Part shown: positions 28,348 to 36,247 of the stretch, one piece after another
Numbering within the stretch: position 1 is the stretch's first letter
Layout of the letters: every line of letters begins with the position of its first letter
NCBI GenBank assembly: GCA_029256105.1
Contig: JAQSYO010000004.1
Coordinates: 186,001-250,000, forward strand
Direction: 5' to 3'
DNA: 64,000 nt
DNA from: Herbinix sp.
Lineage (GTDB): Bacteria; Bacillota; Clostridia; Lachnospirales; Lachnospiraceae
Notes under the pieces: generated by a model
What the model was told of the DNA's origin: nothing
What the model saw: the letters and a program-made list of their open reading frames with translations, nothing else
Database searches by the model: none
Program-made: the position numbers and the translations under genes

Positions 28348-29355
28348 TTAGTAGTTATTATAATAGATATATTCATCCTTGGGAGCTTCTGCCTCGTTAA
28401 TTATTGCATCTTTTAGAACAGGGATTTCAGTCCCATCATACTCTGATTTTGTTATAGTAGCAGTGATAGTGATCCATTGATCTTCCTTAAGTTCACTTCT
28501 CAATTCGCTTTCGCATATAATTCCATACCCCGTCAAATCAACAGCACAGCAAACCATAAAATATCTTCCTGCCAGAAATTGATTTTCTTCTAGACCCTCC
28601 ATAGAATATACCTGCGCTAGAAATTGATATCTTTTTCCAACGAAATCATCAAGGTGGTCATATAAATCCATGTACCAGTTGGCAAAACTTGCATCCTCTA
28701 TGATATAGCTACCATCTATTTCTTTCTTGGAATAAATTTCTGATACATCCGATATATCTTGCTTTTCCTGGGAATTATATATATCTTGAGTGTTCTGTGT
28801 TTCTTCTGTATCTTGTGTTTCTTCTGTATCTTGATCTTGTGTATCTTCTGTATCTTGTGTATCCTGTAAATAATCATTTACATCAGTATACTCCGTACCA
28901 TCGGAGGCTGTCTGTATGTCATTAAGATTTCCGTTATATGGTCTGTCAAATTGACTTTCTCCTTGGGGTGTTTCAGTTTGACTGGTATTTTCTTCTGAAC
29001 CAGATATTCCTTGTTGCTTGGTACTTGTAGATGAACTTATTGCGTGATTATTATCTGTTAATATCATAGCGGAACTGCTGGTACCCACCGGTGGAAATGT
29101 TAGTGCTATAAGCAAAGGGATTGCATAAATAAAATACTGTCTCAAATTCACATTATGCCACCCTTTTTTCCTCTCTGTTAGCACACTTATGGCAAATAGA
29201 AGCAATATAAAAGCCGATATCCATAAGCCAACATGAAATCTGGGATGTACGTATTTATTCATTTTCCCACTAATCAGTCCAAACATGATTAAAAAAGAAG
29301 TCATTATTAAAATCAGAAATTGAACTATGGATTCTTTGTTTGTTCTTTTTTTCAT
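28348..29355 (-). CDS. YcgQ-like membrane protein (TIGR03943/DUF1980)
   Basis: This 335-residue protein has two N-terminal membrane helices, a further hydrophobic stretch near 75-95 and a C-terminal soluble part (IEDASFANWYMDLYDHLDDFVGKRYQFLAQVY..GRYFMVCCAVDLTGYGIICES) typical of the YcgQ/TIGR03943 family, whose members lie beside DUF318 permeases. Residues about 165-200 are a low-complexity DTQDTE/DTEETQ stretch coded by an 18-base DNA repeat. The ATG at 29355 has AAGGAGG and follows the permease gene by 9 bases. The family has no proven activity; its place after znuCB and two COG0523 domains suggests metal homeostasis. Confidence 0.85.
   Translation of the reverse strand: MKKRTNKESIVQFLILIMTSFLIMFGLISGKMNKYVHPRFHVGLWISAFILLLFAISVLTERKKGWHNVNLRQYFIYAIPLLIALTFPPVGTSSSAMILTDNNHAISSSTSTKQQGISGSEENTSQTETPQGESQFDRPYNGNLNDIQTASDGTEYTDVNDYLQDTQDTEDTQDQDTEETQDTEETQNTQDIYNSQEKQDISDVSEIYSKKEIDGSYIIEDASFANWYMDLYDHLDDFVGKRYQFLAQVYSMEGLEENQFLAGRYFMVCCAVDLTGYGIICESELRSELKEDQWITITATITKSEYDGTEIPVLKDAIINEAEAPKDEYIYYNNY
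28784..28865. repeat. 18-base coding minisatellite in the YcgQ-like gene
   Basis: On the plus strand, units related to TCTTCTGTATCTTGTGTT repeat four to five times, with a 6-base sub-period. They encode the Asp/Thr/Gln/Glu-rich linker of the YcgQ-like protein and keep the frame, so copy number could vary without breaking the gene. Confidence 0.7.
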
Positions 29356-29364
29356 AAAGCCTCC

Positions 29365-30930
29365 TTAAAAATAAAGTGCGAAACTATAAAATACAATAAA
29401 ACCTACGAAGCCAACTAGAAAAGCCAATACTATCAGAAAGCGCTTTTTCAAAATTTCAGAAAGCATAATCATATTTTTAAAATCCAACATTGGACCAAGA
29501 ACCATGAAGGACATAACCGGTATCATAGAAAACATTCTCAAAAAGCTTCTTCCAATAAATGCATTAGAAGTTGAGCAGGTGGACATAAATATGGCTGCAA
29601 TAATCATTATCAAAAATTGAATATTTAGATTACTTCCAATAAAACTTTTCATCGTCTGAGGCAGAATAGTCTGGAGGAGTGCTGAAATAAAGGCTCCTAC
29701 AATCACATATTTAATCACTCTAAAAAATTCAAATTTTGCTCCCTTCACAACAGCTTCTATTTTTCTAATTTTTCCTTCCTGTCTTAATTCCAACATATCA
29801 GTTCCAATACTTTGTGTTCTACTTTTCTGTGTTACTTCTTTCTTTGTTTGAATTTTACAGGACATTAAAATTAGTCCAGTAACCAATGCAATCAAAATTC
29901 CAGAAATCATTCGAATTAGAATTAGATATGGTTGATCAGGAAATGCATAATAAACTGACAATAAAACAACTGGATTTACTGCGGAAGAAGCTAACCAGAA
30001 GGTTATGGTTTGTGGTAGTGGCGCGTCTTTTTTTAACAAGCCCGATACAATCGGTACTGTCCCACAGTCACAAATAGGCATAAATAAACCGGCAAAGGAA
30101 GCAATGACAAAGGAACTATAATTATTCTGTGATATCTTTTTCATAATCCATCCGGAAGGAATTAAAATTTGAATCATGGAGGATAAAAAAGCTCCTAATA
30201 AAATAAAAGGAATAGCTTCTATAAGAATACTTATAAATATTGTCGCGACAGATTGCGTTACTCCATAAAACATAAGAAGCAATGACTTCGGTAAGAGTGC
30301 TATAACTACCAGAATCGAGACTGCAATAATTGTACTCTTACTAATCTTAATATATTTTTCTTTTGGCACAAAATATTTATTTATTTTCTCCTCTTCCTCT
30401 AACTCACCCGAATATATTATTTCTGCTTTTTTATTTATGTTCTTTACATCCTGCTGCAATTTTATCTTTTGTTTCTTTTCTAAATCCTCCGCTCTATTGA
30501 ATATAACAACATCACTATTTAAAATATGTGGCTGTATTACAGCTGCCATATTTATTAAAAAGTTCTTAAATGTATTCGCCTCGCTAATAAAAATAATATT
30601 TCTAAACTGATATTCAAAGGGTATTTTCAGATTAAAAAGTAAATTAATATCCCAGGTACCATTAAATTCAATCATAACATGCTCCGGAGAAAACTCATTT
30701 TTGATTCGTTGGAAGAACGGATCTGTAAGCTCTGTAGCATCGCCAAGCGTTATTATTTTAAGCCTATTTACTATCATTAGGTTTTCTTCGTATTCTATCT
30801 TGCCTTCTTCGCATAGGATTAAAACTGTAGTTTTATATTCTGAGAAACTATTTCTATCAATTAATTCTTTAATAAAGGTTGTTTTACCACTCTCTAAAAA
30901 TCCGGTTATTACATCAATATATGTAGCCAT
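29365..30930 (-). CDS. COG0523-type GTPase domain fused to a DUF318/YraQ-like permease
   Basis: This 521-residue protein joins two families. Residues 1-190 resemble a COG0523/CobW metallochaperone GTPase: Walker A GFLESGKTT (10-18), MIEFNGTWD in the place of the usual EPSG segment, and VVIFNRAEDL for the nucleotide-binding region. The CxCC metal motif of COG0523 is missing. Residues about 200-521 are a membrane domain with the DUF318 (COG0701) signature FMPICDCGTVPIVSGL (CDCGT 287-291) and a second-half STCSTSNAFIG. It lies 12 bases after a full COG0523 gene and 9 before the YcgQ-like gene. I infer nucleotide-gated metal transport; nothing here proves the substrate. Confidence 0.88.
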   Translation of the reverse strand: MATYIDVITGFLESGKTTFIKELIDRNSFSEYKTTVLILCEEGKIEYEENLMIVNRLKIITLGDATELTDPFFQRIKNEFSPEHVMIEFNGTWDINLLFNLKIPFEYQFRNIIFISEANTFKNFLINMAAVIQPHILNSDVVIFNRAEDLEKKQKIKLQQDVKNINKKAEIIYSGELEEEEKINKYFVPKEKYIKISKSTIIAVSILVVIALLPKSLLLMFYGVTQSVATIFISILIEAIPFILLGAFLSSMIQILIPSGWIMKKISQNNYSSFVIASFAGLFMPICDCGTVPIVSGLLKKDAPLPQTITFWLASSAVNPVVLLSVYYAFPDQPYLILIRMISGILIALVTGLILMSCKIQTKKEVTQKSRTQSIGTDMLELRQEGKIRKIEAVVKGAKFEFFRVIKYVIVGAFISALLQTILPQTMKSFIGSNLNIQFLIMIIAAIFMSTCSTSNAFIGRSFLRMFSMIPVMSFMVLGPMLDFKNMIMLSEILKKRFLIVLAFLVGFVGFIVFYSFALYF

Positions 30931-30942
30931 AGTTACCCCTTA

Positions 30943-31941
30943 CTATTCAAATAATTTGGATAATTCCAACTCATTAATAAGTTCACCTATCACGCAGATT
31001 CTGCCTGTAAAATCTGCCTTCGCTTCTATTATAGTACTTTCCCCCGGTACATAATCAAATTGTACCCAACCGTTATTCTCAATTTGAATGATGCCTTTTG
31101 CTCGGAGAATAAATCCTTGGACTTTTTCCAATTCGTCTAACATCTCTTCAAGTCTATTTGAGTCATAAATCTTTGTTGTTTCCTTCCCCCATACGGAAAA
31201 CACCTCATCCGCATGATGAAGCTCTTTTTGTAATTTTCCCTTAAATTTTGCATTTATTTTTCTTGGCAACGCTTTCACAATTAGTTTCGAGGGATATTGT
31301 CGTAAATAAAGCTCTTTTAGAATAATATTTTCCAGCTTTACCTCTTCCGCATTTTCAGCTAATTCTACTATTTTATTACCATCAATCTGCCCCCAGTCAG
31401 TGGTGACTATCATAACCGATGGGTTATACCTTTTTATATCCTTTCGAATTATTTCAATAGCATCAGAATTCATAAATTGTGTTTTGCTGAGTAGGATTGT
31501 TTTTGCATTTATTATCTGATCCTTATAAAATTCAGCAAAATTCTTCATATACATGTTATATTTCATTCCATCAACGACTGTCATACATATATTCAAACTT
31601 ATGGCTTCATCCTTAATAAACTGTTCGCATCCTTTTATGACATCGGAAAGTTTTCCTACTCCCGACGGTTCAATAATGATTCTATCTGCTTGATACAACT
31701 TTAATATTTCTTTCAATGCTAAACTGAAATCTCCTGCTATGGTGCAGCAGATACATCCGGAATTCATTTCCTTAATTTCAATCCCATAATCCTTAAATAT
31801 GACTCCATCGATTCCTATCTCTCCAAATTCATTTTCAATTAAAACTAACTTTTCTCCAACAAAAGCTTCCTGCAATAATTTTTTAATTAATGTGGTTTTA
31901 CCTGCTCCTAAAAACCCTGAAATAATATCTACTTTTGTCAA
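30943..31941 (-). CDS. COG0523/CobW-family metallochaperone GTPase
   Basis: This 332-residue cytoplasmic GTPase has Walker A GFLGAGKTT (9-17), the family's metal-binding GCICC motif at 62-66 (EMNSGCICCTI), IIEPSGVGKLSD and a CobW C-terminal domain (about 220-320: LIVKALPRKINAKFKGKLQKE, VQFDYVPGES). Such proteins deliver or allocate zinc or other metals; ZagA/YciC-type members are induced by zinc starvation. The start is a TTG at 31941 with a strong GGAGG seven bases upstream and no nearby ATG. It lies in the apparent znuCB transcript, 93 bases after znuB, which supports a zinc role. Confidence 0.9.
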   Translation of the reverse strand: MTKVDIISGFLGAGKTTLIKKLLQEAFVGEKLVLIENEFGEIGIDGVIFKDYGIEIKEMNSGCICCTIAGDFSLALKEILKLYQADRIIIEPSGVGKLSDVIKGCEQFIKDEAISLNICMTVVDGMKYNMYMKNFAEFYKDQIINAKTILLSKTQFMNSDAIEIIRKDIKRYNPSVMIVTTDWGQIDGNKIVELAENAEEVKLENIILKELYLRQYPSKLIVKALPRKINAKFKGKLQKELHHADEVFSVWGKETTKIYDSNRLEEMLDELEKVQGFILRAKGIIQIENNGWVQFDYVPGESTIIEAKADFTGRICVIGELINELELSKLFE

Positions 31942-32034
31942 TTTTTCGCCTCCATCCTCAAATTCAATAAAACATCTACTTTTATAACCGTTCTGGTCTT
32001 AATTTAATAAGTATATTTTGTTCCTTCTTTTGAA

Positions 32035-32856
32035 TTAAGCCCGTCGCCTGGTGCCAAGTGTATAAATGTAACGAATTCTTTTAATAATTATTACAAGGAG
32101 TAGTACAAATACGGATACGACCGCGGTGAAACCTCCCGGTGCAACATTCACATAATAGGAAAGAAATAAACCAACCATTATATCAATTATACTAAATATA
32201 ACAGAAGCGATTAAGGTGATTTTAAACCCTTTTTCCAGTTGAATAGCAGTAGCAACGGGTAGGGCAATCATAGAGCTTAATACTAGAACTCCAACAATTC
32301 GTATTGATGCTGCTATTGCTGAGGCCACCAAAATTGCAAATATATAATTTATAAAACGGACCTTAACACCTGCTACCTTTGCAGCTTCCTCATCATATGA
32401 GATGTACAACAATTGATGATAAAAAAGGATCAATATCAATACAGAAATAACGCTCAATATAAATATTGTGATTATGTCCGTCTTTGTAACTGTTAATATA
32501 CTACCAAACATATAGGATTGTGCGTTGGCATTCAACTTACCTGAACTCATAATGGATATCGCAATACCGACACTTAAGGATAATACAATCGATAATATTA
32601 AATCGGTATATTTCCTAAAATAATTTCTTAAAAATTCAATCAGCGCACCACAAATTGATGTAAATATAAAAGCTCCGATGATTGGATTTTGTCCAAATAA
32701 TAAACCCAATGAAATCCCCGCTAAGGATGCATGGGATAAGGTGTCTCCAATCATGGAATAACGCCTTACCACTAAAAACACTCCGATACAGGGACAAAGT
32801 ATTGATATCATAAATGAGACAATAATCGCATTCTGTATAAAGCTATAATGAAGCAT
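32035..32856 (-). CDS. znuB: Metal ABC transporter permease (ZnuB-like)
   Basis: This 273-residue protein of about eight membrane segments belongs to the ABC-3 permease family for Zn2+/Mn2+ uptake. It shows VRRYSMIGDTLSHASLAGISLGLL, the conserved ATPase-contact region, and GVLVLSSMIALPVATA. The start is ATG 32856, which has GGAAGGAGG at good spacing and overlaps the end of znuC by 14 bases; the longer frame to 32994 is not needed. It partners with znuC and with the divergently encoded binding protein. Confidence 0.93.
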   Translation of the reverse strand: MLHYSFIQNAIIVSFMISILCPCIGVFLVVRRYSMIGDTLSHASLAGISLGLLFGQNPIIGAFIFTSICGALIEFLRNYFRKYTDLILSIVLSLSVGIAISIMSSGKLNANAQSYMFGSILTVTKTDIITIFILSVISVLILILFYHQLLYISYDEEAAKVAGVKVRFINYIFAILVASAIAASIRIVGVLVLSSMIALPVATAIQLEKGFKITLIASVIFSIIDIMVGLFLSYYVNVAPGGFTAVVSVFVLLLVIIIKRIRYIYTLGTRRRA

Positions 32857-33526
32857 ATGAATCCTCCTTCCGTTTATAATGAAGATATTCTGTTGCATAC
32901 TGATCCGGGCTACATAAATGCCCAAATCCATTTTGTAAATGATATATCTTCGTTGAATTTGTAACAACGGCTTCAAGATTATGTTCAACTGCAAGAATCG
33001 TTATCTTCTGCTCAATACTCAAATTCTTTAATAATCCATAGATTTCTTTTTGACTATCGATATCAACCCCTGTGGACGGTTCATCTAATATTAATAATTG
33101 AGGATTACCCATCAACGCTCTTGCAATTAATATCTTCTGTGTCTGACCACCTGACAAATTTCCTAATAAGGAGTTTTTGTAATTCTCCATTCCTATCCTT
33201 TTTAAGGATTCCATAATTACGTCTTTATCCTTAACTTTTATAAGCTTACGATAGGAATTCAATGCTTCATAAACAGTAATTGGAAAATTTGAATTCGTAA
33301 AATCTTTTTTTTGTGGTACATATCCAATGAATTTTGTATCAACTGTAATATTCCCTTTCGTTGGCTTCAAGAATCCGAGTAGGATACGCATCAAAGTGGT
33401 CTTTCCACACCCATTCTCTCCAACAATAGAGATATAGTCACCAATCGCAACCTCCAAATTTATATCGTGTAATATAAATGGTGCGGTTCCTGTATAGGAA
33501 TAATTTAATTGTTCCAGCTTTATCAT
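32843..33526 (-). CDS. znuC: Metal ABC transporter ATPase (ZnuC-like)
   Basis: This 227-residue ABC ATPase has Walker A VGENGCGKTT, a Q-loop in FIGYVPQKKDF, the signature NLSGGQTQK, Walker B LLILDEPSTGVD and the switch histidine in AVEHN. It is of the zinc/manganese uptake type. The start is ATG 33526 with AGGAGG upstream; the frame runs open to 33610 but those codons overlie the promoter and operators. It begins a leftward transcript with znuB, the two COG0523 genes and the YcgQ-like gene. Confidence 0.93.
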   Translation of the reverse strand: MIKLEQLNYSYTGTAPFILHDINLEVAIGDYISIVGENGCGKTTLMRILLGFLKPTKGNITVDTKFIGYVPQKKDFTNSNFPITVYEALNSYRKLIKVKDKDVIMESLKRIGMENYKNSLLGNLSGGQTQKILIARALMGNPQLLILDEPSTGVDIDSQKEIYGLLKNLSIEQKITILAVEHNLEAVVTNSTKIYHLQNGFGHLCSPDQYATEYLHYKRKEDSYASL

Positions 33527-33582
33527 AATGACTCCTCCTGTTATCGATTGTAATCTAACTTTTTTGTTTTGTAAATAGCTAA

Positions 33583-33653
33583 TGCGAATCATTTGCAATA
33601 ATATTGACAAATCGAATTATTTGATTTATTATTACTAATGCAAATCATTTGCA
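33583..33653 (+). promoter_or_regulatory. znuA promoter framed by two Zur/Fur-type operators
   Basis: TTGACA (33604-33609) and TATTAT (33627-33632) are 17 bases apart. Immediately upstream lies TGCGAATCATTTGCA (33583-33597), and over the start point lies TGCAAATCATTTGCA (33639-33653). The second is a perfect 7-1-7 palindrome, the arrangement used by Fur-family repressors; the half-site TGCAAAT differs from those of B. subtilis Fur, PerR and Zur. Given the genes on both sides, I read these as zinc (Zur) operators controlling both directions. Confidence 0.8.
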
Positions 33654-33686
33654 ATTATCATTTACAATAAGGAGGATTTTCGAACT

Positions 33687-34595
33687 ATGAAAAAAGTATT
33701 GGCGGTGTTGTTAATTTTTTGCATGACTCTTTCTTTCGTTTCCTGCAAAAGCAGTTTAAAAGATACTTCTTCGGATAGTACAAAGCTTGCCGTATCCGTT
33801 ACGTTCAATGCAATGGCTGAATTTGTCGCTGCAGTAGGTCGAGATAGAGTAAACATCTCAACCATTATTCCAACTGGAATGGAACCTCATGATTTTGAAC
33901 CAAAAGCAGCAGATATCGCAGCACTCAGCAATTCCCAAGTATTCATCTATAATGGGCTCGGGATGGAGGTATGGGCGGAGGAAGCCATTAAAGCTGCTGA
34001 AAATGAAAGTCTGGTCATTGTTGTCGCATCCGATAATTCTACTCCCTTTCATAATACCGAGGAAGAGGAAATTGAAGAACATGGGCAGTATGACCCCCAT
34101 ATATGGTTAAGTCTGAAGGGTGCAGAGATTGAAGTGCAAAATATCGCTGACGGACTTTCATCAGCCGATCCCGATAATAGGGAATATTATGAAACGAATG
34201 CTACTTCCTATATCGCACAGTTGGAATCCTTATTTAATGAATATGAGGAAAAGTTCTCTTCATTAGAAAACAAGAAATTCGTGACCGGTCATGCAGCCTT
34301 TCATTATTTTTGCAGAGATTTTGGGCTAGAGCAAAACAGTGTTGAGGACGTATTTGCCGAAGGTGAACCAAGTACTAGGCAGCTTGCCGAACTTGTAGAT
34401 TATTGCAGAGAAAATAATGTATCCACTATTTTTGCTGAGGAAATGGCAAGCCCAGAAATCTCCCAAGCCTTAGCCAATGAAGTTGGTGCTGGTATCGAAA
34501 CCATTCACACAATTGAAAGTTCAGATGACGGCATGACTTATTTAGATCGTATGCGGGAAAATTGTGAAAAGATATATAAAAGCTTATCGAAATAA
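33687..34595 (+). CDS. znuA: Zinc/manganese-binding lipoprotein of an ABC importer (ZnuA-like)
   Basis: This 302-residue protein begins with a lipoprotein signal (lipobox FVSC near residues 17-20) and a cluster A-I substrate-binding fold. The likely metal ligands are His in PTGMEPHDFEP, His in YDPHIWLS, His in VTGHAAFHYF and an acidic residue in FAEEMASPE. A short acidic loop with histidines (HNTEEEEIEEHGQYDPH) precedes the second ligand, as in zinc-binding members. The ATG at 33687 has AAGGAGG at good spacing. It is divergent from znuC and shares the operator region with it. Confidence 0.93.
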   Translation: MKKVLAVLLIFCMTLSFVSCKSSLKDTSSDSTKLAVSVTFNAMAEFVAAVGRDRVNISTIIPTGMEPHDFEPKAADIAALSNSQVFIYNGLGMEVWAEEAIKAAENESLVIVVASDNSTPFHNTEEEEIEEHGQYDPHIWLSLKGAEIEVQNIADGLSSADPDNREYYETNATSYIAQLESLFNEYEEKFSSLENKKFVTGHAAFHYFCRDFGLEQNSVEDVFAEGEPSTRQLAELVDYCRENNVSTIFAEEMASPEISQALANEVGAGIETIHTIESSDDGMTYLDRMRENCEKIYKSLSK

Positions 34596-34651: not shown

Positions 34652-34978
34652 TCTTATTCTAATTACGATCTGTTGCAATCTATTTCTTTTTATTCTTACT
34701 TACTAAAAATTTTTGTGTAATTTTCTACTTATCTACGAATATACCTCTGCTCTCACTTATCTTTCATTAACACCTACAAACGATTTACATATAATATTAT
34801 GAGCTGCTTTTATTGTATACTTATGTACTTTTTATGATTTTAAGCCATACCTAACATCTGCAAAAAGTATCCTTCTTTGCTGGACAAACAAGTCAAATAG
34901 ACGGTTAAAACCACAAGAAAAAACTTTAGTGCCATACCCATGAAAGCTGCTCAACAATTAATAATAAGGAGGAAAAAC
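34652..34978. other. Upstream region of the collagen-like gene
   Basis: These 327 bases carry no open frame of interest and no clear sigma-A consensus. Since the next gene encodes a surface or spore-type protein, a sporulation-sigma promoter is possible but I cannot point to one with confidence. The last bases hold the AAGGAGG ribosome site of the gene at 34979. Confidence 0.3.
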
Positions 34979-36247
34979 ATGAGCAATGTAGCTTTACAAA
35001 TTGAACGCTTAGCCGGGGGAGTACTCCCGGATATAAACAATGTTGTTTTTGATACAATCGTATATGCAGATGGTAATATCAGCTACGATAGTAAAACAGG
35101 AATCGTTACTTTAAATGAACCCGGCAGATATGTAATAAATTGGTTGGTGATTACGCAATCTTCCCCTACAACCAACGTAGCTGTGTTTACGCTGTATTCC
35201 TCACAGGGAAATGTACTGAAAAGTAATTCACCCACCATAACAGGTGCGGTTGTTGGCTTTGGCATTATAAATACAACCTCTGCATCTGTTACAGTTTCTC
35301 TTGTAAATAATAGTGCAGCAATCATCGACTATTCTGACTTTGTACCAGTCAAAGCGTCACTTACTGTTATAAAGGATAATACTTCTGTCATTGGACCTAC
35401 CGGGCCGACCGGACCTAGTGGGTCACAAGGTCTTCCCGGACCACAAGGACCTCAGGGTGCACAAGGAGCAGAAGGACAACAAGGTCTTCAAGGGTTCGTT
35501 GGACCACAAGGTCTTCCTGGACCACAAGGTACACCAGGACCACAGGGTCTTCCGGGACTACAGGGTACTCCTGGACCACAAGGCACCCCAGGGTCACAGG
35601 GTACACCCGGACCTCAAGGTGCTTCTGGGCCACAAGGTTCCCCAGGGTCTTTAGGAGATACATCATATTGCTACTCAATTATGCAGCTTTCCAATATCTT
35701 AAGTCAACTGATCAAACTATATCCTGTTACAGTATGGACGGTTTATACAACCAGTCTTTACTCAATAACTGGTGTGCCGGATCAGCTCTATTCCTCACCT
35801 GATGAATCTGGCGCAGGATTACTAATACTAAAGGATACTACGCAATCTGAGGCGATTCCACTTATAGCCATTACCGCAATTTATATTGGCGATGGTACTG
35901 TATACAATGATTCGATTAAATATCTTGATTCACCTTCCCCTCTACCGGTTGGTTGTGATACAGAACTAATTACCACTGTGCATTCTTACCTCCCTCTTTT
36001 GACCGATGTAGCACTTTTGATAGGTCCATCCGTTCAAGCCTCGGGGTTGGTTTATAAGAATGAATATGGTCTGTTAGTCTTATCTGACATAGACGGAAAT
36101 ACTCCGATTTTCATTCCCTCCAGCCAGATAGAAACAATTATTACAACTACACCACAGCCATTTAGTAAAGAGATAAGCTCACCTACCAAAACCAAAGTGA
36201 GTATCAAGAAGTTGAAAGCAAATAAGAAAACGAAAATAAAAATTTAA
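34979..36247 (+). CDS. Collagen-like triple-helix protein with N-terminal jelly-roll-like domain
   Basis: This protein of about 422 residues has three parts. Residues 1-135 resemble the TNF/C1q-like (BclA-C-type) beta domain ([30 protein letters not shown]). Next come 29 uninterrupted Gly-X-Y triplets (about 138-225, [10 protein letters not shown] to GSPGSL). The C-terminal 195 residues include two similar stretches on hydrophobic beta strands and end in a Lys-rich tail ([13 protein letters not shown]). No signal peptide is present, as in exosporium collagen-like proteins. The start is ATG 34979 with AAGGAGG; an earlier ATG at 34940 is in frame but lacks a site. It is probably a spore-surface or filament protein, which is inferred from the family. 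Confidence 0.82.

Follow-up and report, generated by a model that had tools for sequence, protein, structure and literature searches.

A COG0523-like domain without its metal motif is fused to an ArsP_1 permease in a zinc-type gene island of Herbinix sp. and recurs across Clostridia

Most clients of the COG0523 metallochaperones are unknown, and it is still an open question how entering zinc gets to such a chaperone without passing through a free state. A gene island of Herbinix sp. raises this question in a particular form. We analyzed a 64,000-nucleotide (nt) stretch of its genome (here called the window; assembly GCA_029256105.1, a 4.8-Mb draft with an estimated contamination of 7.48%; contig JAQSYO010000004.1, positions 186,001 to 250,000), and all coordinates given below are positions in this window. 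On the minus strand, a single open reading frame (ORF) at 29365..30930 encodes a protein of 521 amino acids (aa) that joins a G3E domain of the cobW type to an ArsP_1 (DUF318/COG0701) permease, and the gene immediately upstream encodes a canonical COG0523 protein. The fused G3E domain lacks the metal motif CxCC, and we label this metal-motif-less domain on the permease N terminus CobW*. What does such a domain do on a permease? That a motif-less COG0523-like domain is attached to a transporter and recurrently accompanied by a genuine COG0523 gene gives a concrete docking hypothesis, which is weighed here against its rivals.

Both halves of the protein were recognized by Pfam within the one ORF. 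CobW* covers residues 7-172 (30415..30912, minus strand), with the P-loop present, and scored 41.7 bits with PF02492 against a cut-off of 20.7. The permease domain covers residues 227-514 (29389..30252, minus strand) and scored 183.9 bits with PF03773 against a cut-off of 32.3. No match to CobW_C was found on this fusion by Pfam, and a FeoB domain was not among its Pfam matches at an E value of ≤1. The preliminary description of this DNA had reported a P-loop domain without CxCC on a permease with CDCGT, next to a free COG0523 protein with GCICC, and all of these features were read in the sequences. An AlphaFold model of the fusion built with 69 alignment rows had a mean pLDDT of 83.0 and a pTM of 0.61. 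The six Foldseek matches at E ≤ 0.001 were HypB, YjiA, and a UreG-containing complex, with SRP54/FtsY-type GTPases among the weaker matches, and the solved-structure matches include the YjiA entries PDB 4ixn and 1nij. The PF02492 match, the motif GxxxxGK[TS] in 69 of 69 fusions, and the Foldseek result thus agree on the cobW-type fold and the P-loop of the G3E GTPases. No permease was named among the solved-structure matches found by sequence at E ≤ 1e-3, nor among the 50 listed of 950 Foldseek rows.

The preliminary description had named in advance, as grounds for abandoning the fusion, a sequencing error or frameshift that joined two genes near base 30350, and it had called for a search for other CobW plus DUF318 proteins and their neighbors. 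We scanned named genomes with a fusion alignment; of 576 confirmed matches, the best 80 were kept, and these gave 79 loci. The fusion was present as a continuous ORF in 68 of these 79 relatives, a share that overstates the natural frequency of the fused permease because this selection favors fusions. The two halves were adjacent genes, 3 to 33 bases apart, in seven loci, and four loci had the permease without CobW*. Some loci are duplicated between the relative sets, and two (L039 and L047) are near-identical. The hosts include Anaerocolumna, Acetobacterium, Clostridium, Peptostreptococcus, Anaerotignum, Ruminiclostridium, Oscillibacter, and Fusibacter, and fusions also occur in metagenome bins labeled Synergistaceae and Anaerolineaceae. 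Among the matches listed for 200 genomes of the window's family, presumably Lachnospiraceae, there were at least seven full-length matches in at least six genomes. A permease-only query (E ≤ 1e-20) of 118 genomes of the class matched five, including our own, of which four carry fusions and one carries an adjacent split pair that adjoins a COG0523 gene. The fusion architecture is therefore conserved, widespread yet patchy, and recurrent across Clostridia. An artifact such as a frameshift or chimera was rejected on account of the continuous ORFs and the full-length matches in family genomes, and we put its likelihood at practically nil. The seven relatives with two separate adjacent genes would fit an artifact, but the split forms make up one small tree group beside the fused ones, suggesting a later fission. 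Several copies of the system can occur together: Clostridium beijerinckii HUN142 (L051, L067, and L072) has fused and split forms side by side, and L053 and L057 are two system copies on one contig.

Conservation was examined across an alignment of 69 fusions. Residues G10, G15, K16, T17, E41, G43, E88, and N90 were invariant; the first four lie in the Walker A motif GFLESGKT (residues 10-17; 30880..30903, minus strand). In the permease, both Cys residues (C287 and C289) of the CDC motif within CDCGT (residues 287-289; 30064..30072, minus strand) and Cys452 of the SxCS motif (residues 450-453; 29572..29583, minus strand) were likewise present in 69/69. The metal site gave the opposite picture. 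CxCC, the motif by which the COG0523 metallochaperones are defined in the 2009 survey (PMC2770081), was found in none of the 69 aligned fusions, and the fused G domain is not a COG0523 metallochaperone in that sense. An acidic residue at the position of YjiA Glu37 was also absent in all 69, and the YjiA stretch with Cys66 and Cys67 is an insertion relative to the fusion profile, so that the fusion lacks it altogether. From the triple mutant in the title of PDB 4ixn, we take Glu37, Cys66, and Cys67 to be the zinc ligands of YjiA. CxCC was absent as well from 7/7 split CobW* proteins and from 20/20 CobW* domains fused to DUF1980_C (described below), the latter keeping the P-loop in 20/20. By comparison, 59 of 60 neighboring COG0523 proteins carry CxCC, and the exception ends at a contig end. 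Judged by these residues, CobW* is a conserved offshoot of COG0523 in which the nucleotide-binding residues are kept and the metal site is lost. The simplest reading is that CobW* would bind nucleotide without binding metal, because in a domain undergoing mere decay the P-loop would not survive throughout.

The neighbors of the fusion gene recur with it. Several loci end at contig ends, and the neighbor counts given here are lower bounds. In 63 of the 68 fusion loci, the start of a DUF1980 gene lies no more than 150 bases downstream. A COG0523 gene directly precedes the fusion on the same strand in 49/68 and is present anywhere in the fetched locus in 54/68; the corresponding numbers are 6/7 for the split loci and 0/4 for the loci without CobW*, four being few. 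A Fur-like, ZnuA, or ZnuB gene was found within the fetched flanks (≤6 kb) in 41/68. Five Peptostreptococcus loci (L050, L052, L055, L109, and L114) have the COG0523 gene on the strand opposite to the fusion.

A second type of fusion emerged from the other genomes of the family, in which CobW* relatives, among the matches listed, are mostly found in open frames of 310-360 aa. These proteins have cobW and DUF1980_C in one chain (4/4 by Pfam), with little space for a membrane segment, and the same pair was found by phmmer in 23/23 loci checked. DUF1980_C is present in 52 of 60 family genomes, again mostly in frames of 310-360 aa. In all 20 CobW*-DUF1980_C loci examined with longer flanks, a CxCC-bearing COG0523 gene is adjacent on the same strand with a gap of -11 to 166 bases, and each of these COG0523 proteins has a His-rich stretch with 7 to 13 His within 20 residues (20/20). 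Three two-mismatch operator-like sites of the kind described below were found at these loci, and the direct zinc link of this form, judged from sequence, is weak.

A quick tree without bootstrap was made from 105 rows: the window's fusion with 34 of the 68 other fusions, 7 split forms, 23 DUF1980_C fusions, 38 COG0523 proteins, and 2 outgroup proteins from our own genome, which we take from their sequence to be HypB, Pfam saying only cobW/HypB/UreG. The permease-fused, split, and DUF1980_C-fused CobW* domains formed a common group (SH-aLRT 80) that was separate from canonical COG0523 (87), both values being modest. The DUF1980_C-fused domains made up one group (98) nested within a group of 33 rows (98) that holds the window's fusion, and the split forms formed one group (94) beside the fused ones. 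Thus, CobW* appears to have been linked in one type of fusion to the permease and in the other to the C-terminal domain of the DUF1980 partner, which is Rosetta-stone evidence of joint function.

The C-terminal domain of this partner carries the motif RxxMxCCxxD. In transporter-type proteins, 75/75 ungapped rows retain R, both C, and D and 72/75 retain M, and in the CobW* type all five residues are retained in 20/20; the motif is likely a metal site. Transporter-type DUF1980 proteins have three hydrophobic segments in 68/77 rows, and the distribution of positive charges suggests that DUF1980_C of the three-segment protein is extracellular. CobW* should be cytosolic, since its P-loop domain stands ahead of the first membrane segment. 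The same DUF1980_C Cys motif is apparently used on both sides of the membrane, cytosolic in the CobW* fusions and extracellular in the TIGR03943 proteins.

Is the island tied to zinc? The preliminary description had assigned a shared operator region to znuA and the five minus-strand genes, and a motif scan found two candidate Zur-type operators of the TGCAAATnATTTGCA type between them: a perfect TGCAAATCATTTGCA at 33639..33653 (plus strand) and TGCGAATCATTTGCA, with one mismatch, at 33583..33597 (plus strand). At up to two mismatches, the window holds one further TGCAAATnATTTGCA-type site, which is intragenic (30946-30960); the chance expectation is 1.08 in all. Across the 4.8-Mb genome, TGCRAATNATTYGCA matches at three places, each of them next to a gene whose product has a ZnuA domain, and the reversed control pattern matches nowhere. 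The third of these (on another contig, C16:8557-8571) overlaps the longest-ORF start of a second ZnuA-domain gene (PF01297, 187.9 bits). This gene is divergent from a gene for an ECF transporter S component (PF07155), and the third operator lies upstream of the latter. Among the 79 relatives, 19 had a best site with at most one mismatch, compared to 0/79 after shuffling, and 36 compared to 12 had one with at most two, with a single dinucleotide shuffle per locus as the control. Many of these best sites, though not every one, precede ZnuA, COG0523, or the fusion. The window's palindrome is thus a Fur-family-type operator restricted to zinc genes at its three genomic sites. Its arrangement marks it as Zur-type, and we infer that it is a Zur box. 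Candidate promoters were TTGACA-17-TATTAT for znuA (33604..33632, plus strand), between the two operators, and TTTACA-17-TACAAT for the five-gene unit (33547..33575, minus strand), although promoter-like sites were not enriched in this region relative to shuffles (34 versus 35.5). With its genes confirmed and candidate operators in the shared region, the zinc-type island of the preliminary description stands.

For these sequence features (a recurrent fusion, a metal motif that is lost and a P-loop that is kept, partners that recur, and an operator of the zinc type), we tentatively propose a membrane complex of zinc starvation, to which we give slightly less than an even chance. The ArsP_1 permease and the TIGR03943/DUF1980 protein would form a transporter that works with the COG0523 chaperone, and the motif-less G domain would dock COG0523 and gate the hand-off of zinc. 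DUF1980_C and the permease Cys motifs would receive or handle the metal. Cytosolic CobW* would bind nucleotide and pair with the free COG0523 protein, and this pairing would govern the release of zinc from transporter to chaperone. Zinc as the cargo, nucleotide binding by CobW*, the COG0523:CobW* heterodimer, and the inward direction are all what we infer here. The preliminary description had suggested that the free COG0523 protein hands metal to the fused, motif-less copy. A partnership of the two is supported by the neighbor counts for both kinds of fusion, but a hand-off to the fused copy is doubtful because the YjiA zinc ligands are missing from that copy. A hand-off between the permease or DUF1980_C and COG0523, with the fused domain as the dock or gate, fits better. 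We rejected a metal relay through a CxCC site in the fused domain, as none of the 69 fusions has this motif.

The same proteins might serve export instead. The fusion would then expel either zinc or an unintended metal (Cu, Cd, Ni, or Co) that enters via derepressed uptake, and the G domain would power or gate this export. The nearest named permease models are indeed those of efflux proteins, the SO_0444 Cu/Zn efflux family (NF033936) and the efflux transporter SaoE (NF040736), but the permease scored 87.1 and 67.6 bits, respectively, far under the cut-offs of 300 and 325. In another Firmicute, Bacillus anthracis, Zur bound a region upstream of the operon of a related ArsP_1 permease, which is a precedent for Zur at such a gene, but that report (PMC6336718) has the Zur boxes upstream of the operon's -35 element, which its authors read as positive regulation. 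Positive regulation by Zur would argue against a starvation role there, and it slightly lowers the odds of the starvation complex. The window site at 33583-33597 likewise lies upstream of the candidate -35 element of the five-gene unit, though that unit begins with znuC and znuB. Export thus has in its favor a remote similarity to efflux models and what was inferred for B. anthracis, and import is favored because the fusion gene shares one unit with znuB and znuC, beside the same operators as znuA, an arrangement that fits uptake better. We consider export quite unlikely. CobW* could also act on its own, as a nucleotide switch that controls the permease in cis, and COG0523 would then be just a coregulated neighbor that supplies other enzymes with zinc. 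Consistent with this, 14 of the 68 fusion loci have no COG0523 gene within the fetched stretch, and a confident pairing was not seen when the COG0523 and fusion ORFs, which share a frame and are 12 bases apart, were modeled by AlphaFold as a single read-through chain (20 rows; pLDDT, 76.2; pTM, 0.42; no residue-pair output). However, COG0523 is adjacent in 20/20 CobW* loci that have no permease in the stretch read, which control of the permease alone would not predict, and a switch acting solely in cis seems unlikely to us.

What supports either rival, namely, the efflux models, the B. anthracis regulation with the similar placement of the window site, and the loci without COG0523, also weighs against the proposed docking of COG0523 on a zinc-starvation transporter, and the joined model lends a heterodimer no support. 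Several further points count against the docking too. The G4 (NKxD-like) positions, which bear on the choice between GTP and ATP, are poorly conserved among the fusions. The CobW*-DUF1980_C loci had a permease in 0/20 within the stretch read and ZnuABC in 2/20; CobW* therefore does not always serve a neighboring permease. The predicted cytosolic DUF1980_C of these fusions is on the wrong side of the membrane for the proposed scheme, which leaves it unexplained. In addition, the B. anthracis permease gene BAS1632 is numbered beside the COG0523 gene BAS1633 in PMC6336718, and by this numbering alone COG0523 may stand beside a permease without CobW*.

The other genes of the island were found where the preliminary description had placed them. 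The minus-strand order over 28348-33526 is znuC, znuB, COG0523, fusion, and YcgQ-like, with znuA divergent. The first two genes overlap by 14 bases, and the gaps that follow are 93 bases (znuB to COG0523), 12 bases (COG0523 to fusion), and 9 bases (fusion to YcgQ-like). The ZnuC-type ATPase (32843..33526, minus strand; PF00005) matched AztA best among named models, with ZnuC ranking third. The ZnuB-type ABC permease (32035..32856, minus strand; PF00950, 215.9 bits) has its ATG at 32856 and was scanned from 32859. The COG0523 gene (30943..31941, minus strand) has a TTG start, and its product has the P-loop, CxCC (as GCICC), and CobW_C of a canonical metallochaperone (PF02492, 133.6 bits; PF07683, 26.2 bits). 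The TIGR03943/YcgQ-like subunit (28348..29355, minus strand), as read from profile searches and the alignment, has three N-terminal hydrophobic segments, an acidic linker, and DUF1980_C with RxxMxCCxxD; Pfam found both DUF1980 domains, and the TIGR03943 model scored 126.1 bits against a cut-off of 88.8. No solved-structure relative of this protein was found at E ≤ 1. Its linker (28750-28890) is a repetitive acidic stretch of T, E, D, and Q, and of the 77 aligned rows, 75 or 76 have gaps at residues 193-196. The divergent znuA (33687..34595, plus strand) encodes a ZnuA-type substrate-binding lipoprotein (PF01297, 274.2 bits), and a collagen-like ORF rich in GPxG repeats adjoins it at 34940-36247.

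The preliminary description had thought the fusion undescribed. It is not peculiar to the Herbinix genome, and we found no description of it in open-licence PubMed Central text, in which most matches were seen by title. The words "fusion," "fused," and "permease" did not occur in the main text of the 2009 COG0523 survey (PMC2770081). The components are known, and their combination looks undescribed within the open-licence PubMed Central text searched.

Among known systems, FeoB combines an NTPase with a transmembrane iron permease, according to PMC9164220. The fusion resembles it in combining a nucleotide-hydrolyzing type of domain with a metal permease in a single chain, but its G domain is of the G3E/cobW type and its permease is of the ArsP_1 type, which makes this an analogy of layout without kinship. 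The fusion might represent a second, independently evolved G-protein-gated metal permease beside FeoB, in which a metal-blind G3E domain would be the membrane receptor of COG0523, a nucleotide-controlled heterodimer would allow direct transfer of zinc, and the DUF1980_C fusion would be a soluble relay version. We regard this broader idea as rather unlikely. With the COG0523 proteins (YjiA, ZagA/YciC, and CobW), the fused domain shares the G-domain family PF02492 and the fold; it differs in the absence of CxCC and of the acidic residue at the Glu37 position and, in the window's fusion, of a CobW_C match. The SRP54-FtsY pair passes its cargo of nascent proteins on via a heterodimer. GTPases of this type follow the G3E matches in the Foldseek list of the fusion, whereas a COG0523:CobW* heterodimer is merely proposed here. 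IcmF, a MeaB-mutase fusion, likewise has a G3E domain covalently tied to the protein that it serves (PMC9164220), but its target is a cobalamin enzyme and not a permease. An ArsP_1-type permease followed by a TIGR03943/DUF1980 partner is also the arrangement of YcgR/YcgQ. These are presumably the same as ScfA/ScfB and SMU.746/747 and belong to the families of the window's permease and DUF1980 pair. According to PMC5584981, scfA and scfB were treated as ycgR and ycgQ homologues of unknown function, and ScfAB is needed by group A Streptococcus in mouse skin infection. ScfA and ScfB, with 300 and 271 aa, respectively (same source), are not long enough to include a G domain with the permease, whereas the window's permease has CobW* attached and is encoded in a zinc operon. 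This setting suggests a metal-handling role for YcgR/YcgQ (ScfAB).

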